NCBI RefSeq assembly: GCF_016745425.1
Contig: NZ_JAERVK010000003.1
Coordinates: 62,001 to 126,000 of the forward strand
Source: Candidatus Methylomicrobium oryzae
GTDB taxonomy: Bacteria > Pseudomonadota > Gammaproteobacteria > Methylococcales > Methylomonadaceae
Direction of reading: 5' to 3'
DNA: 64,000 nucleotides
In this document: in pieces, positions 46,721 to 63,420 of the stretch
Position numbering within the stretch: the first letter of the stretch is position 1
How the letters are laid out: every line of letters begins with the position of its first letter
Position numbers and translations under genes: made by a program
Notes under the pieces: generated by a model
Seen by the model: the letters and a program-made list of their open reading frames with translations, nothing else
Told to the model about the DNA's origin: nothing
Database searches by the model: none

Positions 46721-46831
46721 GGAAAAATTCCTGAATTTTTAGCTTGCATCAGCGCAGAACCTGGCGTGAACCGCTGAATCTTTAATACAGACGTACCGGA
46801 AAAATTCCTTAAGTATTAAAGGAAAAATTCC
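46721..46831. promoter_or_regulatory. Array of GGAA-N3-TTCC motifs upstream of mxaB
   Basis: Three exact copies of GGAAAAATTCC lie at 46721-46731, 46798-46808 and 46821-46831; the last two are exactly 23 bp apart. A degenerate fourth (GGAAATTTTTT) follows at 46846. They are 60-170 bp upstream of the mxaB ATG, within the divergent gap to the frame at 46991. The same motif pair recurs at 48417, 62331 and 63387. I infer a response-regulator binding site. Confidence 0.6.
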
Positions 46832-46990
46832 CTAACCGGATTTCGGGAAATTTTTTAAAATCATTCCCTCCAGCACTTATAGCGGAGTTGTACCGGCCTG
46901 ATTGTTGCGCCGTTATAAACCTTGAAATGCTGGGTAATTCCTCATGAGCTGTCACGGAAATGAGATGTCCCCTCGGCAAGGAAGTGAGCG

Positions 46991-47368
46991 ATGCGCGACA
47001 GGCCGTTTGTTGCTCGACTGTCTGTCCTCATCGCTCCGGCTTCCTCCGTGTTTGTGCCGACATGGTGGGGGCAGACCGTAAAAAGCAGGATCAGTGATCG
47101 TCTTCTTCTCATTCGGTCTGCAGGCGCTTGCGTTGCGCCTGCAGATTTTTTTGCCGGGACGGCAACGGAAGCTTGGCCGCAAGAGGAGCATTCAAAAAGA
47201 GACGAGATTAAGCGGCAGTCTTCCGGCGGCAAAGGGATTGAATGGCCGCTCAGTCCGGCAGTTGTCGATTTCCGGCTTGTACGCGATAGGGAAGCGCGAT
47301 CCATCCGTTGGCCGAGCGGAGCCGAAGTCAAAAATTCTTCTGCTGCGCGCGCTATGAAAATGCTCTAA
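46991..47368 (+). CDS. Possible small exported protein, doubtful ORF
   Basis: The 125-codon frame starts MRDRPFVARLSVLIAPASSVFVP, which could be a weak signal segment, and ends with a lysine/arginine-rich stretch. I recognise no family, there is no clear ribosome site, and an opposite-strand frame covers the same DNA. It is kept because it is divergent from mxaB behind the motif array and is followed nine bases later by a GC-rich hairpin. Real coding status is uncertain. Confidence 0.25.
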   Translation: MRDRPFVARLSVLIAPASSVFVPTWWGQTVKSRISDRLLLIRSAGACVAPADFFAGTATEAWPQEEHSKRDEIKRQSSGGKGIEWPLSPAVVDFRLVRDREARSIRWPSGAEVKNSSAARAMKML

Positions 47369-47376
47369 AACACGAT

Positions 47377-47396
47377 GGGCCGGCGTCGGCCGGCCC
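47377..47396. terminator. GC-rich hairpin after the secreted protein gene
   Basis: GGGCCGGC (47377-47384), loop GTCG and GCCGGCCC (47389-47396) make a perfect 8-bp stem. On the minus strand it lies 35 bp after the end of the secreted protein gene and is followed by a short TTTT run, so it is a plausible terminator for that gene. Confidence 0.65.
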
Positions 47397-47430
47397 GCAT
47401 GAAAAATGCTGAGTTCCGTCTGGCGGCCGT

Positions 47431-48288
47431 TCACGGCGCTGCCGTTTCGGCCGTAGCACCGGCGGGTGCATAGCCGTTGACTTCGATTTCGAGGAGCGGC
47501 TGGCCTTCTTGCCCCATTTGGCGGAATTTCAAGGCGCCGGGGAGAACGACGGGAGCCTCGCCGGCGGCGCAGGCGGTTTTAACCAGAAGCCATGGGGAAT
47601 CCCGGTACGAGGAACCGTCGTCGTCGCGGTAATTCAAATCGGTCGAGAAATCGACCCAGTTTTCGTCGATGGGCGCTTCGTCGACCAGAGGCTGCGCTTC
47701 GCTCTCGCTTTCCGGCTCGAAAACCAGCGAGGTACTGGTCAGCCCTGCGCGGTAGACGACTTCGTCGGCGTTCGAGGTGAACCAGTAAGCGATTTCGGGC
47801 GCCCGGCCTTCGACTCCGCCGCGGAGAATATCGTTGATTTCGAAGAACTGCTTGCCCGGCGTGATGCGGTCGGCATCGACATTGTTCAGGCGGATCTTGG
47901 CGCCGTAAATGCAGCGGCTTTCTGACTCATTGCGCCAGACCCGGTCGGTCACGAAGCCGACAGTGATCTTGACGGGCCTGAATCTTCTGTTGAATCCATT
48001 CAGGACGAGGGGGCGCCTGGCATTCTTGATTTGCTTGTAGCCGTCGGGAATCTTCGGAATGGCGCAAGTATTGTTGGCTCCGCCGTTGGGCTCGAACGTA
48101 GGAGGAATGGAGCCTTCTTCGTCGGCGCCGAATTCGCCCGTCAAGTTGCAAAGCGTGTAGGCCGAAAGTCCCCCTTCTTCAACGTCGAACCCTTCTTCGG
48201 ATAAGGCGATGAAACCGGTGGCCATCGCGGAGGTGGAGCCGAGCCATAGCGCGCCGAGCAAGGCGCTGTGCAGTATGTATTGGTTCAT
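47431..48288 (-). CDS. Secreted acidic protein divergent from the TonB receptor, unrecognised
   Basis: The 285-residue protein has a typical signal peptide (MNQYILHSALLGALWLGSTSAMA) and an acidic mature part with four cysteines (in TLCNLT, NTCAIP, RCIYGA, KTACAAG), enough for two disulfides. Acidic patches include EEGFDVEEGG, FEPESESEAQ and DLNYRDDDGSSYRD, the last resembling a metal-binding loop. I do not recognise a family. It is divergent from a large TonB-dependent receptor with a 229-bp gap holding the GGAA-N3-TTCC pair, so the two are probably co-regulated. It may be a surface or periplasmic partner of the receptor; this is inference. Confidence 0.8.
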   Translation of the reverse strand: MNQYILHSALLGALWLGSTSAMATGFIALSEEGFDVEEGGLSAYTLCNLTGEFGADEEGSIPPTFEPNGGANNTCAIPKIPDGYKQIKNARRPLVLNGFNRRFRPVKITVGFVTDRVWRNESESRCIYGAKIRLNNVDADRITPGKQFFEINDILRGGVEGRAPEIAYWFTSNADEVVYRAGLTSTSLVFEPESESEAQPLVDEAPIDENWVDFSTDLNYRDDDGSSYRDSPWLLVKTACAAGEAPVVLPGALKFRQMGQEGQPLLEIEVNGYAPAGATAETAAP

Positions 48289-48416
48289 GGTTTTCTCTGT
48301 TGTTATTGAACGTTTACCCTCTACGGCCGGACCTCGCTTTTATCCGGACGCAGAGCCCATCGATCCGTCCCTGTGCAAGGCGGTCGATGATACGCGTTGG
48401 CCCGGCGCTAACGAAG

Positions 48417-48450
48417 GGAAAAAGTCACTGAATAAACCGGGAAAATTTCC
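48417..48450. promoter_or_regulatory. GGAA-N3-TTCC motif pair between receptor and secreted-protein genes
   Basis: An exact site (GGAA-AAT-TTCC at 48440-48450) lies in a 15-bp palindrome CGGGAAAATTTCCCG. A degenerate copy (GGAA-AAA-GTCA) starts exactly 23 bp earlier at 48417. The pair is about 70-100 bp upstream of the receptor ATG and 130-160 bp upstream of the divergent gene. It matches the pairs upstream of mxaF, mxaB and mxaD/mxaY. Confidence 0.55.
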
Positions 48451-48517
48451 CGTGATGAATGGCTTGCCGCTTTTTATCATAGTCGGCCGCTTTCCGAGAT
48501 TTTTTACCCGCCGTCCT

Positions 48518-51500
48518 ATGTTGTCTTCAAAATCCGCCCTTTTTTCACCGTATGGACGGCGTTTGCGTCCATTATGCCTGTTGGCGTTCGCTGCATGGAC
48601 CGATCCGGCTGTTTCCGAAAACGTTGACGAACCCGGTCCCGACGAACTCGAGACCGTGACCGTCGAAGAGGAGAAATTGACCCGGCTCGGGCCGTGGGAA
48701 GGGCTGCAGTTAGCCCGGGAAGAAATCCCGGCGAACGTGCAGTCGCTGAGCGACAAAGACATCAAGTCGTCCATGGCGACCAGCCTGGGCGATTTGATGA
48801 ACGGCAAGCTTCAGTCGGTCAACGTGAACGATTATGCGGGCAATCCGTTTCAGATGGACATTACCTTCCGCGGCTTTTCCGCCTCGCCGCAACTCGGTAC
48901 GCCGCAAGGGCTCTCGGTCTTTCTGGACGGCGTCAGGGTCAACGAACCGTTCGGCGATGTCGTCAACTGGGACCTCATCCCGATGAACGCTTTGGCCGGG
49001 CTCGATGTGTTTCCGGGTTCCAATCCCCTGTTCGGGTTGAATACGCTGGGCGGCGCATTGGCTTTGCGCACGAAGAACGGATTCGACGATGCCGGCGTGG
49101 ATGTCAGTTTTCAAGGCGGTTCCTGGGACCGCAAAAAAGGCGAACTGACCGCCGGCTGGAACAAAGGGAAACTCGGCGCTTTTGTCGCATTTACCGGTTT
49201 CGACGAGGAAGGCTGGCGGGTCAATTCTCCCTCACAGGTCAATCAAGGCTTTGCCCGGTTCGATTGGCGGGACGATCATTTTTCGCTGCGTTTCAGCACC
49301 CTGGCGGTCGGCAACACGCTGCTCGGCAACGGTTTGATACCGAAGGACATGTACAATCAAAATCCGGCGTCGGTGTTTACTTCGCCGGACCGCACCGAAA
49401 ACGAGCTGCAGCAATATAATCTGGGCGGCGAGCTTTTTTTCAGCGACAACCTGAGCCTGACCGGCCAGATCTATCGCCGCGACAGCCGCCGCACCGCGCT
49501 GGCCGGGGACATTTACGAGGATTTCGACGAGATGGACGAAGGCCGGGGGGCAAACAAGCTGGAGGCGGTTCCAGAGCAGCCGGCGGCCAATGGCCAGCCC
49601 GTGCCCGTCTGCCGATACCAGGACGTCAATCGCGACAATATTCCGGATTATTACCTCGTGAAAGATCTCAACGGAGACGACTATCTCGACGACGACGAAT
49701 ACGAGGTCATCGACCGCAGCACCATTAACGCTCCGCTGAATTGGAAGCTTGCGGAAGACAATGTCGAGTTGCTGCCGCCGTTGAACGCAAACGACGGATG
49801 CGGGCGTCTTCGCTACAACAATCCGGGCGGCCCCGGTTCGCCGGTGCGTCCGCGCAACGGGAAGGCATGGCCCGCAGGCTCCGCCGCTTCCAAAGGCTGG
49901 GTCGAAGGCACGCCGATCGGCGTGTTGAGCAATACCGAGATCGGGCAGCAGACGGACGGCGCTTCCCTGCAATTGAACTGGAACAGCGATCGGCATAAAT
50001 TCATGCTCGGCACATCGATCGATGCGGCCGATACCGACTTCGAAACCAGCCAGCGCTTGGGATTGATCGACGCGGCGCATCGCCTCTACAGCGATCCGGC
50101 AAACATCGACCCCATTTATCTGGCCGCCCGCGAAGATATCCGCAACAATTCGTTTACCGGAAAATCCACGACATTCAGCGGTTATTTCAGCGAAACCTAT
50201 TCCCCCAGGGAAAATCTGCATCTCAGCGTTTCCGGGCGTTTCAACCGGACGCGCGTGAAAAACCGCGTTCGGGCCCGGACGCGCGCCGGCTTCGAAGCGC
50301 TGCACCAGATTCTCGACATCCATAAAGTCAGGCCCAACGTCATCCTTTGCAGCGGAACCGATCCGGATACCTGCCCGGCCGAGGCGAACTACAACATCGG
50401 CGAGTTCGACCAGGACGTCAGGCAGCCGCTCGATCCGACGCTGGGATTGGGGCGGTACAGCGAAACGCCGACCGCCGAAACGTTCGACTATACCTCGTTC
50501 AATCCGTCGGTCGGGATCAGTTACCTGCCATTTAAGGACAGGGCGGTTTTTTATAAGGATTTGAACCTGTTTTTCAACTGGAGCCAGGGGACGCGTACGC
50601 CGTCGAGCGTCGAACTGGGCTGCGCCTATGACGGAACGCTGGTGCCGGAGAACCCCGGCGATCCCGAGTCGCCTTTGACGCCGAAGAGCTTTGCCTCCGT
50701 GGGCGGGGCCTGCACGCTGCCTACCGCGCTTTCCGGCGATCCTTTCCTGCCGCAGATTTTCGCCAACAGTTTCGAATTCGGCATGCGCGGCAAGTTTTTT
50801 GGGGATTTGGAATGGAACGCCGCCGTTTACCGCACCGATCTCGAAGACGATATCTATCTGGTCGGCCTGACGCCGGACCGCAGTTTCTTCGATACCATCG
50901 GCAATACCCGCCGGCAGGGGATCGAATTCGGTTTTTCCGGAAAAGCCGGCATCGTCGACTTCAGCCTGAATTACGGCTATACCGATGCGACCTTCCAGTC
51001 TCCCCTGGTCATGGTCAGCCCGCACAATAGCAGCGCGGCGGTGATCGCGCCCGACGATTACGATTATTTGAGCCAGGTGCAATACGACAGCAAAGGGCGG
51101 CCTTTGAACGCGTTGGACGACATGATCGAAATCAAGCCGGGCGACCGCATGCCGGGCATTCCCCTGCATAACATCAATGCGTCGTTGAATTTTCATCTGA
51201 CCCCGAAATGGGAGTTCGGCATCAATATGATCGCCCATTCATCGTCCTTCGTGAGAGGCAACGAAAACAACGCGCACAGCCAGGGCAATTACGATTACTA
51301 TTACGGATACGACACCAGCATCAGCCGGGAACGGTTGTTGCTGCGGGGGCAGCCGTTCAACGATGCGGGCAGCGTCGCCGGCTACGCCATTTTCAATCTG
51401 AAAACCCGCTACCAGATTACCCAAGGCTTATCGGTATTCGGCATGGTCAATAACCTGTTCGACCGCCGCTACGCGACCGCGGGGCGCCTCGGCATCAATC

Positions 51501-51640
51501 CGTTCTCTCCTTCGGAGCGGGGCGCGATCGGACCCAGCGGCTGGAACTACAATTCACGGGACTGGCAAAACAGCACTTTCATCGGTCCGGGCGCGCCGCG
51601 CGCCTTCTGGGTGGGGCTCGATTACAAGTTCGAACTTTGA
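48518..51640 (+). CDS. TonB-dependent outer-membrane receptor with an EF-hand-like loop
   Basis: The 1040-residue protein has a signal region (MLSSKSALFSPYGRRLRPLCLLAFAAW), a TonB-box-like ELETVTVEEEK, a plug domain (residues ~60-190: ANVQSLSDKDIKSSMATSLGDLMNG, DITFRGFSASPQLGTPQGLSVFLDGVRVNEPFGD) and a 22-strand type barrel ending YKFEL. Residues 369-394 form an acidic insert, DVNRDNIPD then DLNGDDYLDDDE, resembling EF-hand and thrombospondin type 3 calcium loops. The start at 48518 gives the best signal peptide; an ATG at 48455 is possible. It lies inside the methanol dehydrogenase locus behind the shared motif pair. Cargo unknown; a calcium or lanthanide chelate is a hypothesis. Its end overlaps the convergent membrane gene by 19 bp. 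Confidence 0.88.
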   Translation: MLSSKSALFSPYGRRLRPLCLLAFAAWTDPAVSENVDEPGPDELETVTVEEEKLTRLGPWEGLQLAREEIPANVQSLSDKDIKSSMATSLGDLMNGKLQSVNVNDYAGNPFQMDITFRGFSASPQLGTPQGLSVFLDGVRVNEPFGDVVNWDLIPMNALAGLDVFPGSNPLFGLNTLGGALALRTKNGFDDAGVDVSFQGGSWDRKKGELTAGWNKGKLGAFVAFTGFDEEGWRVNSPSQVNQGFARFDWRDDHFSLRFSTLAVGNTLLGNGLIPKDMYNQNPASVFTSPDRTENELQQYNLGGELFFSDNLSLTGQIYRRDSRRTALAGDIYEDFDEMDEGRGANKLEAVPEQPAANGQPVPVCRYQDVNRDNIPDYYLVKDLNGDDYLDDDEYEVIDRSTINAPLNWKLAEDNVELLPPLNANDGCGRLRYNNPGGPGSPVRPRNGKAWPAGSAASKGWVEGTPIGVLSNTEIGQQTDGASLQLNWNSDRHKFMLGTSIDAADTDFETSQRLGLIDAAHRLYSDPANIDPIYLAAREDIRNNSFTGKSTTFSGYFSETYSPRENLHLSVSGRFNRTRVKNRVRARTRAGFEALHQILDIHKVRPNVILCSGTDPDTCPAEANYNIGEFDQDVRQPLDPTLGLGRYSETPTAETFDYTSFNPSVGISYLPFKDRAVFYKDLNLFFNWSQGTRTPSSVELGCAYDGTLVPENPGDPESPLTPKSFASVGGACTLPTALSGDPFLPQIFANSFEFGMRGKFFGDLEWNAAVYRTDLEDDIYLVGLTPDRSFFDTIGNTRRQGIEFGFSGKAGIVDFSLNYGYTDATFQSPLVMVSPHNSSAAVIAPDDYDYLSQVQYDSKGRPLNALDDMIEIKPGDRMPGIPLHNINASLNFHLTPKWEFGINMIAHSSSFVRGNENNAHSQGNYDYYYGYDTSISRERLLLRGQPFNDAGSVAGYAIFNLKTRYQITQGLSVFGMVNNLFDRRYATAGRLGINPFSPSERGAIGPSGWNYNSRDWQNSTFIGPGAPRAFWVGLDYKFEL

Positions 51641-52179
51641 CCGGCCGTGCCGTTTCGGCCGGGTTGTGCAACGGCCGTCTCGCCGCCGGGGCGCCGTTCC
51701 AAAGCTATCCCGTCGAAGTAGCTCCATGCGCCGGCCGCGCCCGCAGCGATCGTCAGCGGCCACAGATAGGCATCGACATACGCCGCCGAAAACGCGATCA
51801 GGCCCAGAAAAACGCCGAGCAGCGTGAAGCGCCGGCCGTTTTTCAATCCGTCGGTATAAGCGCCCATTGCCAGGACCAGCAGAATCAGCAGGCCGGTTTC
51901 CTCATGATACAGCCTGCCGGCATTGTGGTAGGCATAGATGACAACCGTCGCGAATACGCAGCCGGCCCAGTGCAGCAGGCGCGGCTGGAGGCTTTTCCGG
52001 TCATTCCGGTTGTCCAGGTAGGCCGGTGCGACCGTGGCCAGTCCCAGGACGAACAGCATGAACAGCCAGTAATAATGGCAATGGTCTTGGGCATTGCGGG
52101 TGATGTAAGCGCCCAATAAAGACAGCGCCAGTAAGCCGACGAACAAACGGTGCGGGGTTAATGGGATGTTATTGATCAT
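51622..52179 (-). CDS. Six-helix membrane protein at the end of the mxa operon, unrecognised
   Basis: The 185-residue protein has about six transmembrane helices: FVGLLALSLLGAYI, YYWLFMLFVLGLATVAPAYL, WAGCVFATVVIYAYHNAG, GLLILLVLAMGAYTDG, FTLLGVFLGLIAFSAAYVDAYLWPLTIAAGAAG. It also has a histidine pair motif (DHCHYYW) and a hydrophilic C-terminal tail. I do not recognise the family. It lies 104 bp downstream of mxaL on the same strand, after a REP palindrome, and so may be the last gene of the operon. mxaE and mxaH, which follow in other methylotrophs, are not evident, and this is not clearly either. Confidence 0.75.
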   Translation of the reverse strand: MINNIPLTPHRLFVGLLALSLLGAYITRNAQDHCHYYWLFMLFVLGLATVAPAYLDNRNDRKSLQPRLLHWAGCVFATVVIYAYHNAGRLYHEETGLLILLVLAMGAYTDGLKNGRRFTLLGVFLGLIAFSAAYVDAYLWPLTIAAGAAGAWSYFDGIALERRPGGETAVAQPGRNGTAGQSSNL

Positions 52180-52258
52180 ATCGACATTCTAAAGTTGGGT
52201 TGAAAGTTTGTTTATCGGCTTCGTGTCCGCCCCGCGCCCGCCGGCATGATGAACCGCC

Positions 52259-52311
52259 CGTAGGGTACGCTGCGCGTACCTTTTCATAAGGTACGCGCAG
52301 CGTACCCTACG
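52259..52311. repeat. REP-like palindrome overlapping the mxaL 3' end
   Basis: A perfect 22-bp inverted repeat (left arm CGTAGGGTACGCTGCGCGTA plus CC at 52259-52280, right arm 52290-52311) has a 9-nt loop. The mxaL stop codon lies in the loop and the right arm encodes the last residues of MxaL (VVGYAART). It belongs to a family with three more copies in the mxa region. Confidence 0.85.
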
Positions 52312-53297
52312 ACTTTTCGCCGAATGGAGAGCAACGCATTTTTTAACCGCCTCAGGCCGAACGGCCAGTACACGATCACCGTCATCAAGAGGGCAAACAG
52401 GGCCGGTTGCCGGCGCACGTCACCGGCAACTTTTTTGGTCAGCGCGAATTCGGGACGCTGCACCGCCTCGGCCAGTGCCTCCGCATCGCTCAGCCGCGCA
52501 TAGCGGAGTCCCGCAGCGAGCGCCAGCTCTTCCAGGTAAGTTTCGTGCAGCGCGCTCAGATGCTCGCTGCCGGTCACCTTGGCGCTGCCGAACGGGGCAT
52601 TGCGGGCGTTGTAGCCTTCGATCTGCGACGGATCCAGGTTCGATTCGCCGAACGAAGAGCGGTGCGGCACGTCGTCGGCCGTGTAATAACCGGCGGGTTC
52701 GCCGCGACTGTCGAACTTCGGAATCGGCACGGCGGTCAGGCCGCCGACGCCGACGATAATACCCTTGACCTTGCCCTTCAGCGCGGAAAAGTCGGGCCGA
52801 TACCGCGGATTCGGCGGCGGCGCTTCATGGCCGTCGGTGATGAAAACGACGGACCCGTCCCGGTGTTGCAGCATCTCCAGCGTATTCATCAGGCCCTGGG
52901 CGATGTTGCTGTCGGCGGCCCAGGCCATGCGCCAGTCGATCTGGGCAATCGCGGCGTCGATTTCCGCATACGAACCGCACACCTCGATCGGTTCGAACAG
53001 CAGCGTCGAGCGCCGTTCGGTGAACAGCCCCAGTCCGACTCTGGACTGGCAGGGCAGTTTGACCAAAAGGTCGCGCAAGTTCCGTTTGACGAATTCGAGC
53101 CGGCTGACCGCGCGGCCGTCCTGCGTAGAGTCGGCCGCATTCATGCTGCGGGTGATGTCGACGATGAAGGTCAGGTTGTAAACCGGCCGTTCCTGTTCCT
53201 CGGCAGGGCGCGCAAACAGTACCCCCATTGCCAGAACCGCCAGCAGCAGGCATACCGTTCGATAGTCTTTCCACGAAAAATTCATCATTTGAAGCAT
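52284..53297 (-). CDS. mxaL: Methanol dehydrogenase maturation protein MxaL (von Willebrand A domain)
   Basis: The 337-residue protein has an N-terminal membrane helix (VCLLLAVLAMGVLFA), a von Willebrand factor A domain with the metal-site DITRSMNAADST (residues ~50-62) and DGRAVSRLEFVKRNLRDLL, and a second helix near the C-terminus (LFALLMTVIVYWPFG). With MxaA and MxaK it is needed for calcium insertion in methanol dehydrogenase. The ATG at 53297 abuts the mxaK stop; ATGs at 53288 and 53285 are alternatives. The C-terminal ~9 residues come from a REP-like palindrome, so this tail is probably not part of the original gene. Confidence 0.9.
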   Translation of the reverse strand: MLQMMNFSWKDYRTVCLLLAVLAMGVLFARPAEEQERPVYNLTFIVDITRSMNAADSTQDGRAVSRLEFVKRNLRDLLVKLPCQSRVGLGLFTERRSTLLFEPIEVCGSYAEIDAAIAQIDWRMAWAADSNIAQGLMNTLEMLQHRDGSVVFITDGHEAPPPNPRYRPDFSALKGKVKGIIVGVGGLTAVPIPKFDSRGEPAGYYTADDVPHRSSFGESNLDPSQIEGYNARNAPFGSAKVTGSEHLSALHETYLEELALAAGLRYARLSDAEALAEAVQRPEFALTKKVAGDVRRQPALFALLMTVIVYWPFGLRRLKNALLSIRRKVVGYAARTL

Positions 53298-53864
53298 TTA
53301 CGGTAAACCGCGCGGAAATCCCGGCACGGTTGTCCATAACTGGGTTTTCTGCTGCACGGTTTCGTCCTCGTCGTCCGGCGAAATCCGGTCCATTTCCGGG
53401 AGCAGCCGCATCGCGGCTTCGAGATTGTACTTGGCGTCCCACTGCCGGCTGTCCAGCGCCAGCGACTGCCGGTAGGCCTGTTTGGCCAATCCGGCGAGCG
53501 GCAGGGCGGCAGCGATGTCCATCGTTTCGGCGTGAGCGATCGCCTGTTCGAGATACAGGTTGCCGAGGTTGTAGCGGCTTCTGGCCCGCTGCGCGGCATC
53601 GCCGTGGTCGATGACCAGGCTCAGCGTCGCCAGCGCCTCGTCGTAGCGGTGCTTGTTTTTCAGATAATACGCCCTGGCCAGCCGCAGCTCGAAGGGGCCG
53701 CCGATGACGGGTTCGACCTCGACGTCGCGGCCCGATACGAGGCGGGAGATCAGCGCATTGTTGGCCTGAATCCGGTACAGATCGGCCGCCCCGTAGAGCA
53801 TGGCAAGAAGGCCCACGGCCAGCGTCAGCCAGAGCAGGGGATGGAGTAGCTGTCTCGTGTTCAT
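53298..53864 (-). CDS. mxaK: Methanol dehydrogenase accessory protein MxaK
   Basis: The 188-residue protein starts MNTRQLLHPLLWLTLAVGLLAMLYGAADLYRI with a membrane anchor, followed by a TPR-like helical region (YYLKNKHRYDEALATLSLVIDHGD; SRYNLGNLYLEQAIAHAE; QWDAKYNLEAAMRLLPEMD). It matches MxaK by size, fold and position between mxaC and mxaL. It overlaps mxaC by four bases and abuts mxaL, so translation is coupled. It takes part in calcium insertion in methanol dehydrogenase, likely as a scaffold for the vWA proteins. Confidence 0.9.
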   Translation of the reverse strand: MNTRQLLHPLLWLTLAVGLLAMLYGAADLYRIQANNALISRLVSGRDVEVEPVIGGPFELRLARAYYLKNKHRYDEALATLSLVIDHGDAAQRARSRYNLGNLYLEQAIAHAETMDIAAALPLAGLAKQAYRQSLALDSRQWDAKYNLEAAMRLLPEMDRISPDDEDETVQQKTQLWTTVPGFPRGLP

Positions 53865-55734: not shown

Positions 55735-56570
55735 GCCGCTCTCTGGTGTAAATAGCGATTGATGGCGGGAATGTCGCAGTGTTCGATGAACAGCGGCTCG
55801 CTGCCGAAGGCGCGAAAGGCCCCGATCAGGTGCTGCCGGCGTTTCGCGTAGGCGGCGATGATCCGTTCCCGGAGAGACGGGCGCATGACCAGGGTGCGGG
55901 AGACGCTGCTTTCGATGTCGCGGACGGACAGCAAGCCCCAGGAAGGCAGTTGCCGGTATTCGCCCGCATCCCACAGTATCAAAGGAACGATGTCGTGCAT
56001 TTGCAGGGAAGCCAGCAGGTCGCGCAGGTGCGCGAGCGGAAAATGGGCGTCGGTCAATAGAAACAGCAGCGCCCGTTCGGCGGGCAGATACGCGGCGGCA
56101 TTCCTGAGTCCGGATGCGCTGCCGGACAATTCGGCGGTTTCGAGCCGGCAGGCGAGGCGGGATACCGCCGCCTCATGCAGACCGGTAGGCAGCAGCCAGT
56201 GCGGCTCGATGCTTTCGGACGCGCCGATGAAGCCGAAGCGGTCTCCATAGCCAAAGGCCGAGCGCGCGAGCGTGCGCAGCAGGGCGGTCAGGATCTTCTG
56301 CTTGCCGGCATGGCCCATCGACCCGGACAGGTCGGCGAGCAGATACACGTCGATCCGGCTCGGCTGCCGGTAGGCGCGTACGTGAAAATGTTCGAAAGGG
56401 TCGAGCACGCTGGCCCGAAGGTCGAGGCGGCGGGGATCGTTGCTCGCGGCCAGCGGCTGGTGCTGTTTGAACAGCAGCCCCGCGCCGCTCATACGGCCCG
56501 GGTGCGCGCCGGGGTACACCGCGCCGGACAGCCAGTGCAAACGGTAATGAAGAAGATCGGCTTCAGGCAT
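55731..56570 (-). CDS. mxaS: MxaS, DUF58/vWA-like protein
   Basis: The 279-residue cytoplasmic protein contains DLRASVLDPFEHFHVRAYRQPSRIDVYLLADLSGSMGHAGKQK, where DLSGSMG is the metal-dependent adhesion site of a vWA domain within a DUF58 protein, and RALLFLLTDAHFPLAHLRDLL. Such proteins work with MoxR-type AAA+ ATPases (here mxaR, just upstream). Position and length match MxaS of methylotroph clusters. It overlaps mxaA by four bases. The 198-bp gap upstream contains a palindrome and a REP element. Confidence 0.9.
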   Translation of the reverse strand: MPEADLLHYRLHWLSGAVYPGAHPGRMSGAGLLFKQHQPLAASNDPRRLDLRASVLDPFEHFHVRAYRQPSRIDVYLLADLSGSMGHAGKQKILTALLRTLARSAFGYGDRFGFIGASESIEPHWLLPTGLHEAAVSRLACRLETAELSGSASGLRNAAAYLPAERALLFLLTDAHFPLAHLRDLLASLQMHDIVPLILWDAGEYRQLPSWGLLSVRDIESSVSRTLVMRPSLRERIIAAYAKRRQHLIGAFRAFGSEPLFIEHCDIPAINRYLHQRAA

Positions 56571-56608
56571 GGATTGGCGTTATATCGTCATTTCTCTGGA
56601 GCCCTGTG

Positions 56609-56628
56609 CGGGAAGTTCGAACTTCCCG
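56609..56628. repeat. Perfect 20-bp palindrome between mxaR and mxaS
   Basis: CGGGAAGTTC is followed directly by its reverse complement GAACTTCCCG. It stands next to a REP-like element (56633-56710). It may be an operator or simply part of the repeat cluster; it does not have the N3 spacing of the mxa motif. Confidence 0.55.
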
Positions 56629-56632
56629 GGAT

Positions 56633-56710
56633 TGTAGGGTACGCTGCGCGTACCTTGTGGGGTGTTTGCCGTCCGAATACGTACAAAAGGTAGGCGCAGC
56701 GTACCCTACA
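56633..56710. repeat. REP-like palindrome copy 2 (between mxaR and mxaS)
   Basis: Arms of 24 bp (56633-56656 and 56687-56710) starting TGTAGGGTACGCTGCGCGTA pair with one mismatch around a 30-nt loop. Same family as 52259-52311. Confidence 0.8.
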
Positions 56711-56768
56711 CCGTTCATGGCGATCGAGTGCCGGGTGGATAATTCATGATTCATCGCAATGCCGGCAA

Positions 56769-57788
56769 TTAAGGTGCGGCGACCTGCTGCAGGATCGCAG
56801 CGGCCAGTTGCGGCACCAGTTGTTCCTTACGGTAACCGTACACCGGATTGATGAAAAGGCGGTGCCGGGTGCACACCTCGAATATCGCCTGTACGTCTTC
56901 CGGCAGCACGTAGTCGCGCGCTTCCAGCCAGGCGCGGGTCTTGGCGGCGCGGATCAGGTAACTCATGCCGCGCGGGCTTGCGCCGCTGAGCAGCAGCTGT
57001 TTCATGTCCACGTCGGCTAGGTGAATGCCGTAGCGTGCGGGATCTTGGGTAGCCTGCCAAAGGTCCAGCGCATAGCGGCGCAGCTTCGGGCTAGTCTGGA
57101 TTTTTTCCTGCACCGTTTGCGCCAGATCATTCAGGCGGTCGTAGGCGATCCCGCCGGGATCGATGCCGGCGATCAGGCGGTCGACATCATGAAAACGGGG
57201 GTCGAACATCAACTGCTCGAGCAGGGCCTCGTCGTCCGGCCGCTCGATGCGGATTTCCATCATGAAGCGGTCTTTCGCGGCGGCCGGCAGTTCGAAGGTT
57301 TCTTGCCTTTCGACCCGGTTGCGGTCTGCGAATACCTGAAAGTGCGGCATCGCATGTTCGCGGTTGAAGGCATTGACGCTGCGTTCGGCCATTGCCCGGA
57401 GCAGCAGTGAATGCACCTGCGGGCGGGCGCGATTGATCTCGTTGAAGAAAAACGTGCTGAGCCTTTCGCCCTGTTTGAGGAGAGGGCCGGGATCGACGCG
57501 CGGACGGCCGTTTTCGTCGAGATAGGTGTAATAGATCAGATCGGCGGGCATCAGATCGATGGTGCCCTCGATGCGTTCGAAATAGCCGCCGAGCCCTTGC
57601 GCGACCGCGCGCAGCAGGGTCGTCTTGCCGACCCCGACATGGCCTTCGAGCAATACGTGGCCGCGCGCGAAAACCGCAATCACGATCTGTCTGACGGCCG
57701 GCTGTATGCCGATCACGGTTTGATTGAGCTGTTGTTCAAACCGCAGCGCCCGTTCGCGCCATTGGATTAATTCCGCATCGTTCATCAT
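56769..57788 (-). CDS. mxaR: MoxR-type AAA+ ATPase MxaR
   Basis: The 339-residue AAA+ ATPase has a Walker A (GHVLLEGHVGVGKTTLLRAVAQGLGG), Walker B (RLSTFFFNEINRARPQVHSLLLRAMAE, DE-type region) and sensor motifs, with LSGASPRGMSYLIRAAKTRAWLEARDYVLPEDVQAIF in the lid, all typical of MoxR. Two adjacent ATGs (57788, 57785) can start it; the longer open frame upstream has no family match. It works with the vWA proteins MxaS, MxaC and MxaL in maturing methanol dehydrogenase. A 700-bp repeat-rich gap separates it from mxaI. Confidence 0.93.
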   Translation of the reverse strand: MMNDAELIQWRERALRFEQQLNQTVIGIQPAVRQIVIAVFARGHVLLEGHVGVGKTTLLRAVAQGLGGYFERIEGTIDLMPADLIYYTYLDENGRPRVDPGPLLKQGERLSTFFFNEINRARPQVHSLLLRAMAERSVNAFNREHAMPHFQVFADRNRVERQETFELPAAAKDRFMMEIRIERPDDEALLEQLMFDPRFHDVDRLIAGIDPGGIAYDRLNDLAQTVQEKIQTSPKLRRYALDLWQATQDPARYGIHLADVDMKQLLLSGASPRGMSYLIRAAKTRAWLEARDYVLPEDVQAIFEVCTRHRLFINPVYGYRKEQLVPQLAAAILQQVAAP

Positions 57789-58050
57789 GGAAATTCGAAA
57801 AAAACTCCGGCAGACACATGCCGGAGTATTGAGTGGTATATTAGTCAAAGAACGAACTGGAACCGGCCTTGCCGTCCGCGGCTGGTCACCGCGAACGCCC
57901 AAGGCTCGCCGCCGGTTCCGGGTAATGCTGCAGCGATATTCATAGAAAGAGGTATCGCACATACAGCGATACCCTCGACAGGGAAATATCGATGCCGGTA
58001 AAAATCGCCAGCTGGATTTTCACTTCTTTTCCGTAAGCTTCATGAACACT

Positions 58051-58373
58051 CCGTAGGGTACGCTCGACTGCATGGGCAGAGATTTGCCTCCTGCAAATCT
58101 TCTGCATTCACGCCCTCCCTGGCGTTCATGCAGGAGGTAGGCAGAAAACCGCTTCTGCGTTTTCTGCATTCGCCATACCCTTGTGGTTTAGCAATGCAGA
58201 AGCAATTGCCGACGACTGCAAGGATGCAGGAGTTAGAGCAACGCATGGAGCAGTTGCCGACGACTGTAAGGATGCAGGAGTTAGAGCAACGCATGGAGCA
58301 GTTGCCGAGCGCGTACCTTTCGGTATCATCGCCACGAACTATTTCAAAGGTACGCAGAGCGTACCTTACAAGC
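58051..58373. repeat. Split REP-like element between mxaI and mxaR
   Basis: The left arm (CCGTAGGGTACGCT at 58051-58064) and the remaining REP parts (GCGTACCTTT at 58311-58320 and AAGGTACGCAGAGCGTACCT near 58347-58367) are separated by about 245 bp. The insert contains two stem-loops (58080-58100 and 58141-58167) and the tandem 48-bp repeats. This looks like one REP copy interrupted by another repeat. Confidence 0.6.
58206..58301. repeat. Two tandem copies of a 48-bp repeat
   Basis: Units begin at 58206 and 58254 and differ by a single base (GCAAGG versus GTAAGG); a third start (TTGCCGAG) follows at 58302. A diverged copy in reverse orientation lies at about 60254-60303 in the mxaF-mxaJ gap. 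Short frames across it are repeat-derived and not considered coding. Confidence 0.85.
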
Positions 58374-58374
58374 T

Positions 58375-58467
58375 GGTTACCACGCGCCGGCGTGGTAACC
58401 CAGTGCCGGACGCGCCAGCGTCACGAGACACAGGCGCGTCGTAACCGCATTCCCACGCAGCGCGTGG
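58375..58467. terminator. Three consecutive stem-loops downstream of mxaI
   Basis: In the direction of transcription the mxaI stop is followed by stems CCACGC/GCGTGG (58453-58467), GACGCGCC/GGCGCGTC (58409-58440) and an 11-bp perfect stem GGTTACCACGC with loop GCCG (58375-58400). None has a T-run. They may cause partial termination or protect the 3' end of the structural-gene mRNA. Confidence 0.5.
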
Positions 58468-58489
58468 AAACGAGAAACCCGGACATGCC

Positions 58490-58771
58490 TCAGATTTCGT
58501 CCACGTCGTAAACGAACTTGCCGGTCTTGTTGAAATGTTCCCAGCGCTTCTGATTGCGCGCTTCCATTTCGGCGATCGACTGCGATTGTTTGTTCAGTTC
58601 GTTGGGGTCGTGTTTCGGGTCGTATTTGCTGCCTTCGACCTTGTCGGGATAGCCCGGCTTCGGCTCCCAGCACACGCCGGGCTCCTTGCAGTGGGTGCCG
58701 TCGTAGGCTGCCGCGGTGAAGGCCGTTGCCGCCAACAGGGCGGCAGTGCTGAGCAAGAAAAACTTTTTCAT
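58490..58771 (-). CDS. mxaI: Methanol dehydrogenase small (beta) subunit MxaI
   Basis: The 93-residue precursor has a signal peptide (MKKFFLLSTAALLAATAFTAAA) and a mature part YDGTHCKEPGVCWEPKPGYP, with the two cysteines that form the subunit's disulfide, then a long lysine-rich helix (NELNKQSQSIAEMEARNQKRWEHFNKTGKFVYDVDEI). This is the characteristic small subunit that wraps MxaF in the periplasm. The start at 58771 is fixed by the signal peptide. It lies 14 bp after mxaG. Presence of MxaI confirms a calcium-type enzyme, since XoxF enzymes lack it. Confidence 0.97.
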   Translation of the reverse strand: MKKFFLLSTAALLAATAFTAAAYDGTHCKEPGVCWEPKPGYPDKVEGSKYDPKHDPNELNKQSQSIAEMEARNQKRWEHFNKTGKFVYDVDEI

Positions 58772-58785
58772 CTCGGATCTCCTCG

Positions 58786-59262
58786 TTATTGTTGTAACCA
58801 TTTGGCTTTTTTCGGATCGCCATGATAGATGTCGCGAATCCAGGCCATGATCAATAGCATGTCGTCGGTATTCAAGTTGACGTATTGTGGTCCCATCATG
58901 CCGTTCGCGCCGCCGAACAGCAGCTCGAACAGGCCCTTGTCGGTCGCGTTGGCAGGATAGGTCCAGTAGTCGTCTGCCAGGCCCGGCCCCAGTTTGCCTT
59001 CGGCTTCGTGGCCGTGGCAGCCCGAGCAGGCGGTCATGAACAGGTCATGGCCTTTTTTGACCGCTTCCGCGTCGCCGTTGTAAGGGTTTTTTCCCGTTTC
59101 CTTGAACTGTTTGAAGGCTTCGGTATCCCCGCCTTTCTTGGCGACGCTCAAATCCAGCACTTCGCCGGTGATCGCGTTATGGAAAGTGATTTCCGCGATC
59201 GCGACCGAGCTCAATAGGGCGAGGCTCAGCGATGTAGCGGCAAAAATGTGTGTCGTTTTCAT
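58786..59262 (-). CDS. mxaG: Cytochrome cL, MxaG
   Basis: The 158-residue precursor has a signal peptide (to about residue 23, VAIA), the heme c motif CSGCH at residues 79-83, and the DYWTYPANATDKGLFELLFGGANGMMGPQYVNLNTDDMLLIMAWIRDIYHGDP segment that includes the axial Met and is typical of cytochrome cL. It is the specific periplasmic electron acceptor of methanol dehydrogenase. Gene order mxaF-J-G-I is conserved. Confidence 0.96.
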   Translation of the reverse strand: MKTTHIFAATSLSLALLSSVAIAEITFHNAITGEVLDLSVAKKGGDTEAFKQFKETGKNPYNGDAEAVKKGHDLFMTACSGCHGHEAEGKLGPGLADDYWTYPANATDKGLFELLFGGANGMMGPQYVNLNTDDMLLIMAWIRDIYHGDPKKAKWLQQ

Positions 59263-59283
59263 AGTTTTCCAGGTTGTTTTTAA

Positions 59284-60126
59284 TTATCCGGCTGATTCCG
59301 GTTCGTCCAGCAAAGGCATGCCTTCTTCTTCCAAGAGATCCTCGATATCGTCCTCGGCCTCTTCCAGCGCCTTGTTCAATTCCGCGAGCAGGGCAGGTTT
59401 GTCCTTGCGCACGCCGACCGAGGTGCTGTAATGATGGCCGACCTTCTGGCCGTCCGCGCGCTTGTTGTCGTCGGGGATCACGGTCATGGTCAGCGGTGAC
59501 TGCGACGCTTTCACATAGCGCGCCGCCGCCGGTCCCCACAGTACCGCGATCTCGGCGTTGCCGGCAGCGACTTCGGATACCAGCTTCGCATGATCATATT
59601 TCACGTACTGGTTGCGCTTCGACTTGAAGCCGACCAGTTCCTGCGAATAGTTGAACATGTCGTTGTAGCGGCCTATCGCGCGCAGCATCGTTTCGGCCGG
59701 CGTTCCCGGCACGAAGGCGATCTTCTTGGCCTTGCGCAACGCCTCGCTGTTCCAGTTTTCTACTTCCGGACCATTCTCTTCGCGGGTAATGAACACGTAG
59801 CCGGAACGGTAATAAGGCCGGGTCGTCAGGACTCTCGGGTCGCCGGCGTCGACGCCCAACGTGACGTCGCACAGGCCTTTGTCGAGATAGTCCCGCACGT
59901 AATAGCGCGGGTCGGTCCAATAGACCATCTCGACCGGCCTGTTCAGGGTTTTGCCGAGCAGGGACGCGATCTTGTTTTCGAAGCCTTCGCCTTTTTTGTT
60001 CGAATACGGCATTTCGTCTTCGGCCGCGCAGACTTTTAACGGCTCCTGGGCCGTTGCCGGGGGATTGGCGGCGAGCAAGCCCGCCGTCAGGCTGAAAGCG
60101 GCCGATAACAGTTTTATTTGATCCAT
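59284..60126 (-). CDS. mxaJ: MxaJ periplasmic protein
   Basis: The 280-residue protein has a signal peptide (MDQIKLLSAAFSLTAGLLAANPPATA) and a type 3 extracellular solute-binding fold: EPLKVCAAEDEMPYSNKKGEGFENKIASLLGKTLNRPVEMVYW, LDKGLCDVTLGVDAGDPRVLTTRPYYRSGYVFI and AVLWGPAAARYVK. An acidic C-terminal tail follows. MxaJ associates with methanol dehydrogenase and aids its assembly. The start at 60126 is set by the signal peptide. A 203-bp repeat-containing gap separates it from mxaF. Confidence 0.94.
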   Translation of the reverse strand: MDQIKLLSAAFSLTAGLLAANPPATAQEPLKVCAAEDEMPYSNKKGEGFENKIASLLGKTLNRPVEMVYWTDPRYYVRDYLDKGLCDVTLGVDAGDPRVLTTRPYYRSGYVFITREENGPEVENWNSEALRKAKKIAFVPGTPAETMLRAIGRYNDMFNYSQELVGFKSKRNQYVKYDHAKLVSEVAAGNAEIAVLWGPAAARYVKASQSPLTMTVIPDDNKRADGQKVGHHYSTSVGVRKDKPALLAELNKALEEAEDDIEDLLEEEGMPLLDEPESAG

Positions 60127-60175
60127 TTTGGGGTTTCTCTTGGGGTGCATATTGATCCGTGCGGATTCGTAGATT

Positions 60176-60316
60176 CGTAGGATGGGTAGAGGCGCTAGCC
60201 GAAACCCATCGATCAAAACCCATCAAGGAATAACTTGATGGGTTTCGCTTCGCTCTCGGCAACTGCTCCCTGCGTTGCCCTACCTCCTGCATCCTTGCAG
60301 TCGTACCCATCCTACG
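60176..60316. repeat. 141-bp inverted-repeat element between mxaF and mxaJ
   Basis: The ends CGTAGGATGGGTA (60176-60188) and TACCCATCCTACG (60304-60316) are perfect 13-bp inverted repeats. Inside are a hairpin around GAAACCCATC/GATGGGTTTC and, at about 60254-60303, a reversed copy of the 48-bp repeat found at 58206. It is non-coding and MITE-like. Confidence 0.75.
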
Positions 60317-60329
60317 TTGTCTGCATCGA

Positions 60330-62141
60330 TCAGCTATCCAGTGCGAAGACCATCACGCCGCCGCCCTGCTGGGTGTAGTGCGCGAGTTCCTTGAAGGCGC
60401 CCACCGCGCCCAAACCGGCTGTCGGATCCTGCAGGTCGAACACCAGGCCGACGCCCGGCCAGCCGCCGACGCCGTAATAGATCGCGACGTACTGCTTGCC
60501 GTCATGCCCGTAGGTGATCGGATGGCCGATGACGCCGGAAGGCAGCTTGAATTTCCACAGTTCCTTGCCGTTGCGCGAATCCAGCGCCTTGATGTAGCCG
60601 TCGAGCGTGCCGTAGAACACCAGGTCGCCCGCGGTCGCCATGGTGCCGCCCCAGACCGCGAATTTTTCCTGCACTTCCCAGTCGAATTTGCCGGTCACCG
60701 AGTTCATCGCCTTGACCTGGCCGAGCGTGCCTTTCGGGCCCGGATACATGTTCAGCGTCGCACCCACGAAGAACTGGCCTGCGCGATAAGGCAGCATGAA
60801 CGGTTCCCAGTCCATGCAGATGTGGTTGATGCCCATGAAGAACAGGTTCTTCTCGGGATCGTAGGATTCGATACCCTGGTTGTGGTAACCCATCGCCGAC
60901 GGGCAGATGCCCTTCGCCTGGTGGTCCATGTGGGTCGAATATTCGGGGTCGCGGACCGGCAGGCCGGTTTTCAGGTCGACCTTTTTGACCCAGTTGACCG
61001 TATCGTCGATCTTGAACGCGTTGACCAGGTCGCCGTTTTCGCGGTTCAGGGTATAGACCAGGCCGTTGCGGTCCGGGTGGGTCAGGAGCTTGGTCATTTT
61101 GCCGTCGACCATCTGCTCGGACAGGCCCATGTAGTTGACGCCCGCGTAATCCCATTCGTCATGCGGCGTCTTTTGGTAGCCGAATTTGGCCTCGCCGGTG
61201 TCGATGTCGCGGCCCCAGATGGTCATCGTCCATTTGTTGTCGCCGGGGCGCATCGTTTCGTTCCACGGCGCGGGATTGCCCGATCCGTAGTAGAGCATGT
61301 CCAGTTCGGGGTCGAACGCATACCAGCCCCAGTTGGTGCCGCCGCCGATCTTCCAGGCGTCGCCTTCCCAGGTTTTCAGGCCCAGGCCGAATTGGCCGTA
61401 GTGGGGGTTATGGCTGTTGAAGTCTTTGGACAGCTTGATGTCTTCGTCGGGCCCTGTCGCATAGACGCGCCAGGCCTGCTTGCCGTCCTTGATGTAATAG
61501 GCGGTCGCATAGCCGCGGACGCCCAGTTCCGCACCGGAAGAGCCGACGATCACCTTATCTTTCGCGACGAACGGCGCGATGGTCAGCGTCGAACCCATCG
61601 CGATGTCCGAGTTTTCCATTTTCCAGAGCAATTCGCCGGTTTTCGCGTGCAGCGCGACGATATGGCCATCCAGTTGGTTCAGGAAAACGGTCGCCGGATA
61701 GTCGGGACCTGCCGGCGCATAGGCCACGCCACGGTTGACTACGTCGCAGCAGGCGACCGCGCGCGCGGCCGGATTTTGCTTCGGCTTGTACTGCCACAAA
61801 ATCTTGTCGGGGTTATTCAAATCGATCGCATAGACGTTGTTCGGATACGGGGTATGTACGTACATGATGCCGTCGACGACCAGCGGTCCGCCTTCATGGC
61901 CGTTCAATACGCCGGTCGAAAACGACCAGACCGGTTTCAGATGATGCACGTTGCGTGTATTGATTTGCGTCATCTTGCTGAAATGGGTCGCGCTGTAATC
62001 CTTGGTCTGCATGACCCAGTTGGTGTCTTCTTTCGACAGCCTGTCCAGTTCTTTGTTGGCCTCTGCCGGCAGCGCGGCCGCCAGAAACGCGCCGCCGCAA
62101 GCGAGCGACGCGGCGGTGCGGGTGATTTTGGAAATCCGCAT
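60330..62141 (-). CDS. mxaF: Methanol dehydrogenase large subunit MxaF (PQQ, calcium type)
   Basis: The 603-residue precursor has a signal peptide ([20 protein letters not shown], ending near PAEA) and an eight-bladed PQQ propeller. It shows the vicinal Cys-Cys in AVACCDVV, tryptophan-docking repeats, and the catalytic region [13 protein letters not shown]. The Asp of WDY is the catalytic base, and the residue two further on is Ala; lanthanide-dependent XoxF has Asp there. This, with mxaI and mxaG, shows a calcium enzyme. It oxidises methanol to formaldehyde in the periplasm. The strong GGAGGGGG site fixes the start. Upstream are the GGAA-N3-TTCC pair and a REP element. Confidence 0.98.
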
Positions 62142-62330
62142 AATTCCCCCTCCAAGGGTTGTTTTTATTGAGCTGAATTTGAAAAGCCTGGATCCGGCGC
62201 CTCGGTAAATCGGATATTCGGCCTTCTTGATCAAAACGTTCACAGGGGTACCGAAGCGCGGATCCGAGCAGGCGACATGGTAGCCGAGCGGGGGAGGCGG
62301 GCGTTACGGAATAAACCTTCAAATCGGCTA

Positions 62331-62364
62331 GGAAAAAATCCGAAAAATCGAAAAGAAAAATTCC
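62331..62364. promoter_or_regulatory. GGAA-N3-TTCC motif pair upstream of mxaF
   Basis: GGAA-AAA-ATCC (62331-62341) and AGAA-AAA-TTCC (62354-62364), each with one mismatch, start exactly 23 bp apart. They lie 190-223 bp upstream of the mxaF ATG. A weaker site (AGAC-AAA-TTCC) is at 62388. The spacing and core match the pairs at mxaB, mxaD/mxaY and the TonB receptor. Confidence 0.55.
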
Positions 62365-62407
62365 TGGACGCGGTTTTTCGTGGGTTGAGACAAATTCCTA
62401 TTTTCAG

Positions 62408-62469
62408 CTGTAGGGTACGCTGTGCGTACCATTGGGGGACTGAAACGGTACGCACAGAGTACCCTACAG
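62408..62469. repeat. REP-like palindrome upstream of mxaF
   Basis: Arms of 23 bp (62408-62430 and 62447-62469), beginning CTGTAGGGTACGCTGTGCGT, pair with one mismatch around a 16-nt loop. Fourth copy of the mxa-region REP family; it separates the mxaF motif pair from the mxaD end. Confidence 0.8.
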
Positions 62470-62798
62470 CGGTTTGTGCCTTTTGGGGTAACCCAAGCTG
62501 GGCAAAAGGTGTATCACGAGGAATTCTCGTCAGGGTAATCAGGGGGGAAGTGAGATTACCCAGAGTCTTAACGGCATTTGAGGGTATGCCGGGCGCGAGA
62601 CGGTATGGCGGCCGATCCGTGCTGCGAGACTCCGGTGTCCGGCTTTCGCGACGGGCTGGCCTATGCATCGCGCGATCGAAGGAGCGATGGCAGTAAACCA
62701 TGGCAGGGCAGACCGTGCCGTTAAGCCGGCTCGGTTCGATTCATGCTCCCTCGACCGGCTCGGTCAGGGTATTTGCCGCCGGCCGGCAAGCCCGGCGT
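62470..62798. other. Intergenic stretch mxaD to REP, no gene
   Basis: The 330 bp after the mxaD stop have open frames on both strands without family resemblance or ribosome sites. A GC-rich imperfect inverted repeat near 62775-62800 (GCCGGCCGGC region) may help to terminate mxaD. Confidence 0.45.
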
Positions 62799-63329
62799 TT
62801 ATTTTTCGAGCTTGCTCTTCAGGCCGTCCAGCCCGTTTTTCAGGAAGGCGGTGACCGCTTTGACCGCGGCTTCGTCGTTCAGTTTTTCCGGCGGGGTATT
62901 GCCGGTATCGCCGCGATAAAAGCGGCTTTTCATGGTCACGATCGATGTGCCTTCGGCCTCGCCCGTCTTGACCTGGATTTCCATCGAGTAGGAACTGGCC
63001 GGAAATGCCTCGATGTTTTCCTTTTTGAGCCGGTAGCTGTATTCATGGTCCTTGTCGCTGTAATAATCCAGTTCTTCGGTCAGCTGGCCGCCGTTGTGCA
63101 GAGTCAGGGTACGGACGCCGCCCGACTCGTGCTTGCCGTCGCCGGTGCTTTCCTTCACGTCCGGATGCCAGTCGGCAATCGTGCCGAACTCTTTGACCGC
63201 GTCCCAGACCTTTTTGAAGGGCGCATTGATCGTAATGCTTTCCAGCCCCTTTTGCGGCGTGGGTCCATGCGCCTGTGCGGCGAAAGGAAAGAGCAGGATG
63301 CCCAATAAAATGACGAATGATCGCTTCAT
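62799..63329 (-). CDS. mxaD: MxaD, SRPBCC-family periplasmic protein
   Basis: The 176-residue protein has a signal peptide (MKRSFVILLGILLFPFAAQA) and a START/SRPBCC domain (SITINAPFKKVWDAVKEFGTIADWHPDVKESTGDG, then VRTLTLHNGGQLTEELDYYSDKDHEYSYRL). It matches MxaD, which promotes the interaction of methanol dehydrogenase with cytochrome cL. The start at 63329 is set by the signal peptide. Here it lies upstream of mxaF rather than after mxaL, and is divergent from mxaY with a shared motif pair between. Confidence 0.92.
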   Translation of the reverse strand: MKRSFVILLGILLFPFAAQAHGPTPQKGLESITINAPFKKVWDAVKEFGTIADWHPDVKESTGDGKHESGGVRTLTLHNGGQLTEELDYYSDKDHEYSYRLKKENIEAFPASSYSMEIQVKTGEAEGTSIVTMKSRFYRGDTGNTPPEKLNDEAAVKAVTAFLKNGLDGLKSKLEK

Positions 63330-63386
63330 GATGTCGTGTCCGTAATGAAATGGGCCATTATCGAAAGCTTTGCCGAAATCATGGAG

Positions 63387-63420
63387 GGGAATTTTCCCGA
63401 AAGAAAGCGGGGAGATTTCC
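63387..63420. promoter_or_regulatory. GGAA-N3-TTCC-type motif pair between mxaD and mxaY
   Basis: GGGA-ATT-TTCC (63387-63397) and GGGA-GAT-TTCC (63410-63420) start exactly 23 bp apart. They are 58-91 bp upstream of the mxaD ATG and 94-127 bp upstream of the mxaY ATG. The spacing equals that of the other three motif pairs. Confidence 0.55.

Follow-up and report, generated by a model that had tools for sequence, protein, structure and literature searches.

We analysed a 64,000-nucleotide window of DNA from Candidatus Methylomicrobium oryzae (G000:C32:62001-126000, that is, contig NZ_JAERVK010000003.1 of a genome totalling 4,726,425 bp), in which an 11-bp palindrome, GGAA-N3-TTCC (hereafter the box), recurs upstream of genes that we take to be mxaB, mxaF and mxaD, and between a gene for a LanA-like TonB-dependent receptor (lanA2) and a divergent gene for a secreted protein. 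The box is a real, specific and conserved putative operator. We consider it likely that it is the operator of MxaB-type response regulators of the NarL/LuxR class (MxaB and a paralogue), arranged in phased class II activator arrays of the lanthanide switch; bound regulators would then activate rather than repress their targets in answer to a lanthanide signal, and the target genes are expected to be those needed under lanthanide scarcity.

Paired boxes in the window and the genome

A preliminary description of the window had reported four pairs, each of two boxes 23 bp apart (a 34-bp pattern), and a scan of the window confirmed all eight half-sites: 46798/46821 upstream of mxaB (both exact), 48417/48440 between lanA2 and the secreted-protein gene (two mismatches and exact, respectively), 62331/62354 upstream of mxaF (one mismatch each) and 63387/63410 upstream of mxaD (one mismatch each). 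At 23 bp the window holds four pairs with ≤2 mismatches, against none or one at each of the other spacings from 11 to 80 bp (mean, 0.22). With ≤3 mismatches allowed, five pairs were observed where 0.49 were expected, and none of 100 dinucleotide shuffles reached five. The genome-wide scan that had been proposed as a check found the pair to be rare outside these promoters, where four of the five pairs with ≤2 mismatches are located; the fifth (C59:199245) lies within an open frame having a ZipA domain. Pairs with ≤3 mismatches numbered 36 in the genome, against 12 for a reversed control. The same scan led us to reject the pair as a general promoter feature. Three elements were added to those described previously: the promoter-proximal box of mxaB at 46721, which is exact; a third repeat of mxaF, degenerate, at 62308; and, on contig C62, a box upstream of lanA, which encodes a LanA-like receptor shorter than that of lanA2.

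Single sites of the form GGAAWWWTTCC are also more frequent in the genome than a control (29 versus 6), and five of them lie upstream of mxaB, lanA2 and lanA. The other 24 overlap open frames of ≥100 aa, 22 of which had a match in a Pfam scan (L191 and L192 had none), as might be expected if the boxes were a dispersed repeat or AT-rich palindromes that arose by chance; nor does the window show a clear enrichment of single one-mismatch boxes (45 versus 34.6 expected, with 8 of 100 shuffles as high). Yet the 22–23-bp pairs, their promoter position, their offset from the −10 element and their conservation across genera all exceed the shuffles, and we regard chance as having a negligible share in the explanation, having rejected it by the shuffles, the spacing and the genome-wide controls. 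The open-frame test is itself weak: 46721, 48440 and the lanA box, three of the five boxes at switch promoters, are likewise located in extensions of frames or in antisense frames, and one further site (L199), which precedes a NifQ domain, may be intergenic.

Conservation among relatives and promoter geometry

Regions upstream of orthologues were taken from up to 61 genomes, using only matches for which the locus had been fetched; the relatives (genomes labelled G, families f) are mostly Methylococcales, as inferred from named records. The mxaF promoter of the window has three repeats rather than two, all on the minus strand: R1, GGAATTTTTCT (62354..62364, one mismatch), R2, GGATTTTTTCC (62331..62341, one mismatch) and R3, AGGTTTATTCC (62308..62318, three mismatches, ending TTCC-GTAACG), the last lying 25 bp from a predicted −10 element, TACCAT (62277..62282, minus strand). 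Orthologous regions were anchored on TTC[CT]GTA, keeping an anchor only if ≥75 bp of the 400-bp region lay before it, and 22 of 29 passed. Among these 22, the next TTC upstream is at 22 bp in 11 and at 23 bp in 11, a third repeat follows 43–46 bp upstream in 21, and TAnnAT occurs 24–25 bp downstream in 16. Conservation at orthologous mxa promoters, which the preliminary description had named as a check, is thus found in the mxaF array; its spacing of 'exactly 23 bp' holds in the source genome and broadens to 22 or 23 bp in relatives. The anchor pattern was also matched by 14 of the 15 loci from named genomes that have an MxaB orthologue (L223 is the exception), one match being probably false (L224, with repeats that end TTCC-TTAACG); in a metagenome-assembled genome of Methylobacter sp. 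(L211) the 22-bp unit stands in near-perfect copies.

Exact boxes were found upstream of lanA2 in 8/8 regions, lanA-like genes in 17/22, mxaF in 10/29, mxaB in 8/21, mxaD in 7/30 and mxaY in 3/26. In the same sets, the control dyads AAGG, GAAG, GAGA and AGAG gave none, and GGAA with other gaps and AGGA-N2 gave 0–2 per set. Among the 30 regions upstream of mxaD orthologues, 12 have a pair with ≤3 mismatches at 22 bp, and 10 have one at 23 bp. The mxaF and mxaB sets overlap and are not independent because the two genes are divergent in many relatives. When one region per genus was kept for each gene (126 regions), the exact box was present in 46, compared with a shuffled mean of 1.12 (maximum, 4 in 100 shuffles), and the 23-bp pair in 17, compared with 0.03 (maximum, 1); 22 bp was the second most frequent spacing (10) and 36 bp the third (9). 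Across 151 family genomes, 23-bp pairs with ≤1 mismatch were found at 20 places, distributed over 18 genomes, compared with 2 for the control, and 13 of the 20 lie outside long frames, adjoining mxaB, mxaD, the operon of mxaY and its regulator, or a gene that by eye looks mxaR-like (L307).

The position of the boxes relative to predicted −10 elements is similarly constrained. Averaged downstream of the boxes without selecting for a −10 element, the −10 score peaks at an offset of 25 in the mxaB, mxaY, lanA2 and lanA-like sets and of 24 in the mxaD set; pooled by genus over 97 sites, leaving out the mxaF and xoxF sets, it peaks at 25 with a score of 4.59, the maximum in 500 shuffles being 4.08. 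Five predicted promoters of the window have a −10-like hexamer 24–25 bp from a box. Besides that of mxaF, these are the mxaB promoter, where an exact box, GGAATTTTTCC (46721..46731, minus strand), lies 25 bp upstream of GATCAT (46690..46695, minus strand), the best offset of the mxaB set; the mxaD promoter, where GATAAT (63357..63362, minus strand) is 24 bp from the proximal box of the pair (63387..63420, minus strand); and two promoters flanking the pair at 48417..48450 (assigned to no strand), which has TATCAT at 24 bp on either side, each facing one gene (48475..48480, plus strand, for lanA2; 48387..48392, minus strand, for the secreted-protein gene). The two boxes of this last pair could thus be shared out between the divergent genes, one for each. 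The 46721 box was also the only significant and best match (E = 3.9e-4) of promoter model R1, which was built without the source genus and scored 150 of 629 candidates. A box centred at approximately −43 next to a poor −35 element is as expected for a class II activator site, if the predicted transcription starts are correct; additional boxes would sit near −66 and −89.

We propose that one regulator dimer would bind each 11-bp palindrome, that the 22–23-bp repeats would bring successive dimers onto nearly the same side of the helix, and that the gene-proximal box, which abuts the −35 region 24–25 bp before the −10 element, would recruit RNA polymerase in the manner of a class II activator. 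Within the window, mxaF would be controlled through three boxes, mxaD through a pair, and lanA2 and the secreted-protein gene through their shared pair; mxaB, with its proximal box and the distal pair (46798..46831, minus strand; both boxes exact), would probably be subject to autoactivation or part of a cascade.

Several observations weigh against this reading. Seven of the 29 mxaF regions fail the anchor test: three have no anchor (G016, G058 and G055), one has GTC (G046), one has its anchor too near the region end (G007) and two have anchors that are not part of an array (G047 and G041). The 22-bp spacing is as frequent as 23 bp in mxaF, and across the gene sets there are spacings of 33–37 bp as well; of the eight lanA2 regions, only three have the pair at 23 bp and three have it at 22 bp, with spacings of 37 bp in G029 and 32 bp in G012. 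The exact box is missing from 19/29 mxaF, 13/21 mxaB, 23/30 mxaD and 23/26 mxaY regions. A mismatch-based count of spacings is flat in mxaF and mxaB taken alone because R2 and R3 are degenerate, and the triplet becomes visible only in the anchored analysis. Promoter model R1 did not report the mxaD and lanA2 sites among the 150 of 629 candidates that were scored. Scored without the anchor, the mxaF and xoxF sets have −10 peaks at 14 and 39 and none at 25 (for mxaF because the proximal site is a minority of those scored). In the data pooled by genus there is a second peak at 40, contributed by lanA-like boxes with a run of T after them; boxes of lanA-like genes are often approximately 40 bp away from the −10 element. 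Of the 20 family pairs, six are embedded in open frames of ≥111 aa, and the L305 pair has no assignment.

Candidate binding proteins

The mxaB product (45978..46661, minus strand; identified by Pfam, orthologues and the tree) combines a receiver (PF00072, E = 4.4e-26) with a LuxR/GerE helix-turn-helix domain (PF00196, E = 4.7e-13), as does the paralogous regulator encoded on C62 (E = 6.2e-27 and 1.1e-11, respectively). NarL/FixJ (LuxR-GerE) proteins act at arrays such as that of BvgA at the fha promoter, in which inverted-repeat dimer sites recur at approximately 22 bp (two helical turns) and the last abuts the −35 element. The arrays described here are similar in having a candidate binder with receiver and GerE domains, inverted repeats at promoters and a tandem phase of 22–23 bp, in place of which some regions have 32–37 bp; they differ in their core, GGAA-N3-TTCC, and in the lanthanide and methanol regulon to which they would belong.

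In the tree, 21 MxaB-clade proteins form one group (support, 100/100), with the mxaF-linked regulators of family f4 on the MxaB side and the MxaY-linked regulators of family f1 in a separate clade. The recognition helices of the two clades are very similar (KTVCNHGTAIK-like versus KTVANYGTQIK-like), and MxaB and the paralogue are inseparable by sequence, a further point against our reading. Genomes that lack MxaB and have the MxaY-linked paralogue keep an exact box at lanA-like genes (G009, G003 and G013; in these and in G024 the best matches are at 46–53%), and the mxaY operons of many relatives have one AAAAGAATTTTTCCTATAG-like box, including those of genomes in which MxaB-clade proteins are lacking (G024, G004 and G023; one mismatch). 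The paralogue beside mxaY or lanA must therefore read the box too. The box as such is best assigned to the regulator family, and MxaB itself is the likeliest reader of the mxa arrays. The proposed name 'MxaB box' accordingly keeps the rarity of the pair, the coherent genes and the conserved mxaF array on its side and loses the claim that the site is unique to MxaB, since genomes without MxaB keep it and the helices are alike.

The regulators themselves are familiar from Methylomicrobium (Methylotuvimicrobium) buryatense, in which, without lanthanum, MxaY raises mxaF and mxaB transcripts and lowers xoxF (PMC5018670). That system shares with the one described here its regulators and, at the transcript level, the targets mxaF and mxaB; no binding site is given in the part of the report considered (PMC5018670), whereas we propose an operator, add mxaD and the receptor genes as targets and find no pair at xoxF. 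The finding that MxaY acts upstream of mxaB (PMC5018670) would also suit a different arrangement, in which the paralogue mainly reads the mxa boxes, MxaB acts downstream or through another element, and the site is really that of the partner of MxaY. The boxes kept at lanA-like genes or mxaY in G009, G003, G013 and G024 point the same way, as does the proximity of the paralogue to mxaY (≤1.5 kb) in 22 of 26 mxaY loci, the exceptions being G000, G001, G028 and G019. We nevertheless consider this arrangement unlikely: genomes with the mxaF array have either MxaB or its f4 sister regulator, which groups with MxaB in the tree; many relatives have mxaB and mxaF in divergent orientation; and an mxaB mutant resembles an mxaY mutant in having less mxaF transcript (PMC5018670).

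The preliminary description had also united the four transcription units in one regulon with feedback on mxaB and mxaY. Sites at both mxaF and mxaB are what an MxaB/MxaY regulon would have, and mxaF, mxaB, mxaD and the LanA-like receptor gene form a coherent set with phased inverted repeats in the NarL/LuxR style, to which lanA on C62 adds a further member. Feedback on mxaY in the source genome is possible; the fourth pair, assigned previously to mxaD and mxaY together, has its −10 element facing mxaD, and mxaY has its own TTGACA (63446..63451, plus strand), by inference the likely −35 element of a separate promoter. In the source genome, mxaY lies beside mxaD and the paralogous regulator beside lanA, with the exact lanA box (C62:157849) just upstream of the receptor gene, between it and the regulator gene. 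An R3-like element, GGGAGTGTTCCGTAACG, is present between mxaD and mxaY (63467-63477, minus strand), with no obvious −10 element at 25 bp.

At xoxF, the check proposed previously gave no pair in the source genome: upstream of the xoxF-like gene (C32:141049) there is neither a pair with ≤3 mismatches nor a GGAAWWWTTCC site, and we reject the idea that the pair controls xoxF directly in the source genome, where control may be indirect. Three of the 20 xoxF regions covered have an exact box, and three have a 23-bp pair with ≤3 mismatches (G008, G012 and G057). In many of the 20 xoxF leaders (L134 and L135-L153), a palindrome, AAACTAATATTAGTC, preceded by GTGA...TCAC arms, was noticed by eye; it is possibly a separate xoxF operator or an RNA element.

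PedS2/PedR2 of Pseudomonas putida is likewise a LuxR-type two-component lanthanide switch, of pyrroloquinoline quinone (PQQ) dehydrogenases, and differs in that the part of the account considered gives no operator motif (PMC12997753). In the open-access literature on the lanthanide switch, we found no binding site for MxaB and no defined DNA target of the switch; a concrete operator with fixed promoter geometry makes the question testable and predicts new members of the regulon, namely LanA-like receptor genes, mxaD and the secreted-protein gene.

Wider occurrence and neighbouring features

Named genomes were also searched by MxaB-like regulator, and the best 80 loci contain 48 exact boxes, of which 39 fall in the 450 bp that precede a switch-gene homologue, a zone that makes up 15.4% of positions; for eight control dyads the count was 5 of 41. 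All 12 Paraburkholderia, Caballeronia and Burkholderia loci among the 80 have a 22-bp pair with ≤2 mismatches (10 also score at 23), and in 11 of them an exact-box pair sits between the kinase and LanA-like receptor genes (L288 has no exact box). In P. xenovorans LB400, genes that are presumably pqq genes, the regulator, the kinase, the pair and the receptor stand in one row. An unrelated regulator of lanthanide and methanol genes that binds the boxes is very improbable given their recurrence beside the regulator/kinase/receptor cluster in Methylococcales, Thiodiazotropha and Paraburkholderia loci, although these loci were fetched by the regulator, so that nearness to the cluster is partly built in and the pair is not. 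On balance we lean towards GGAA-N3-TTCC, singly or in 22–23-bp phased pairs and triplets, being an ancient operator of the lanthanide switch that travels with this cluster from methanotrophic Gammaproteobacteria to Paraburkholderia. If so, it would provide a sequence key for reading lanthanide regulons directly from genome sequences, also in bacteria that are not known to be methylotrophs, and would serve as a marker of lanthanide-regulated genes in other bacteria and for engineering lanthanide-responsive promoters.

Of the genes that adjoin the boxes in the window, lanA2 (48518..51640, plus strand) encodes a long LanA-like TonB-dependent receptor of 1,040 aa with Plug and beta-barrel domains; its start at 48518 is assumed, the frame being open further upstream. 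Near full-length orthologues occur in 8 of 61 genomes including the source genome, with a fragment in G005, and this long form exists besides the shorter receptor on C62. The names lanA and lanA2 are our assumption, based also on similarity between the two genes, with no reference LanA in the comparison. The divergent secreted protein (47431..48288, minus strand; 285 aa) had no Pfam or NCBIfam match and has homologues of 54–59% identity in G002 and G025. The gene taken to be mxaF, for the methanol dehydrogenase large subunit (60330..62141, minus strand), has 76–99% identity to its counterparts in the 29 relatives for which the locus was fetched. The name mxaD (62799..63329, minus strand) is carried over from the preliminary description, relatives having been compared. 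The histidine kinase gene mxaY (63451..64000, plus strand) runs past the window end and may start at 63531; the full gene, in L046, encodes LapD_MoxY_N, HAMP, HisKA_3 and HATPase_c domains.

Three further features were observed near these genes. On the plus strand, CTAAC follows the distal mxaB pair (46798-46860), somewhat as in mxaF promoters, and the distal pair may be left over from a divergent mxaF promoter of an ancestor. An inverted repeat, CTGTAGGGTAC...GTACCCTACAG (62408-62469), is located upstream of the mxaF array both here and in G001, a sister genome; it has the look of a small mobile repeat. On C62, near the region of lanA and the paralogous regulator, a repeat-spacer array with GTTTTCCCCGGCCTTATGCCGGGGCCTCATTGAAGC units (L047:4421-5501) is apparently a CRISPR (clustered regularly interspaced short palindromic repeats) array.

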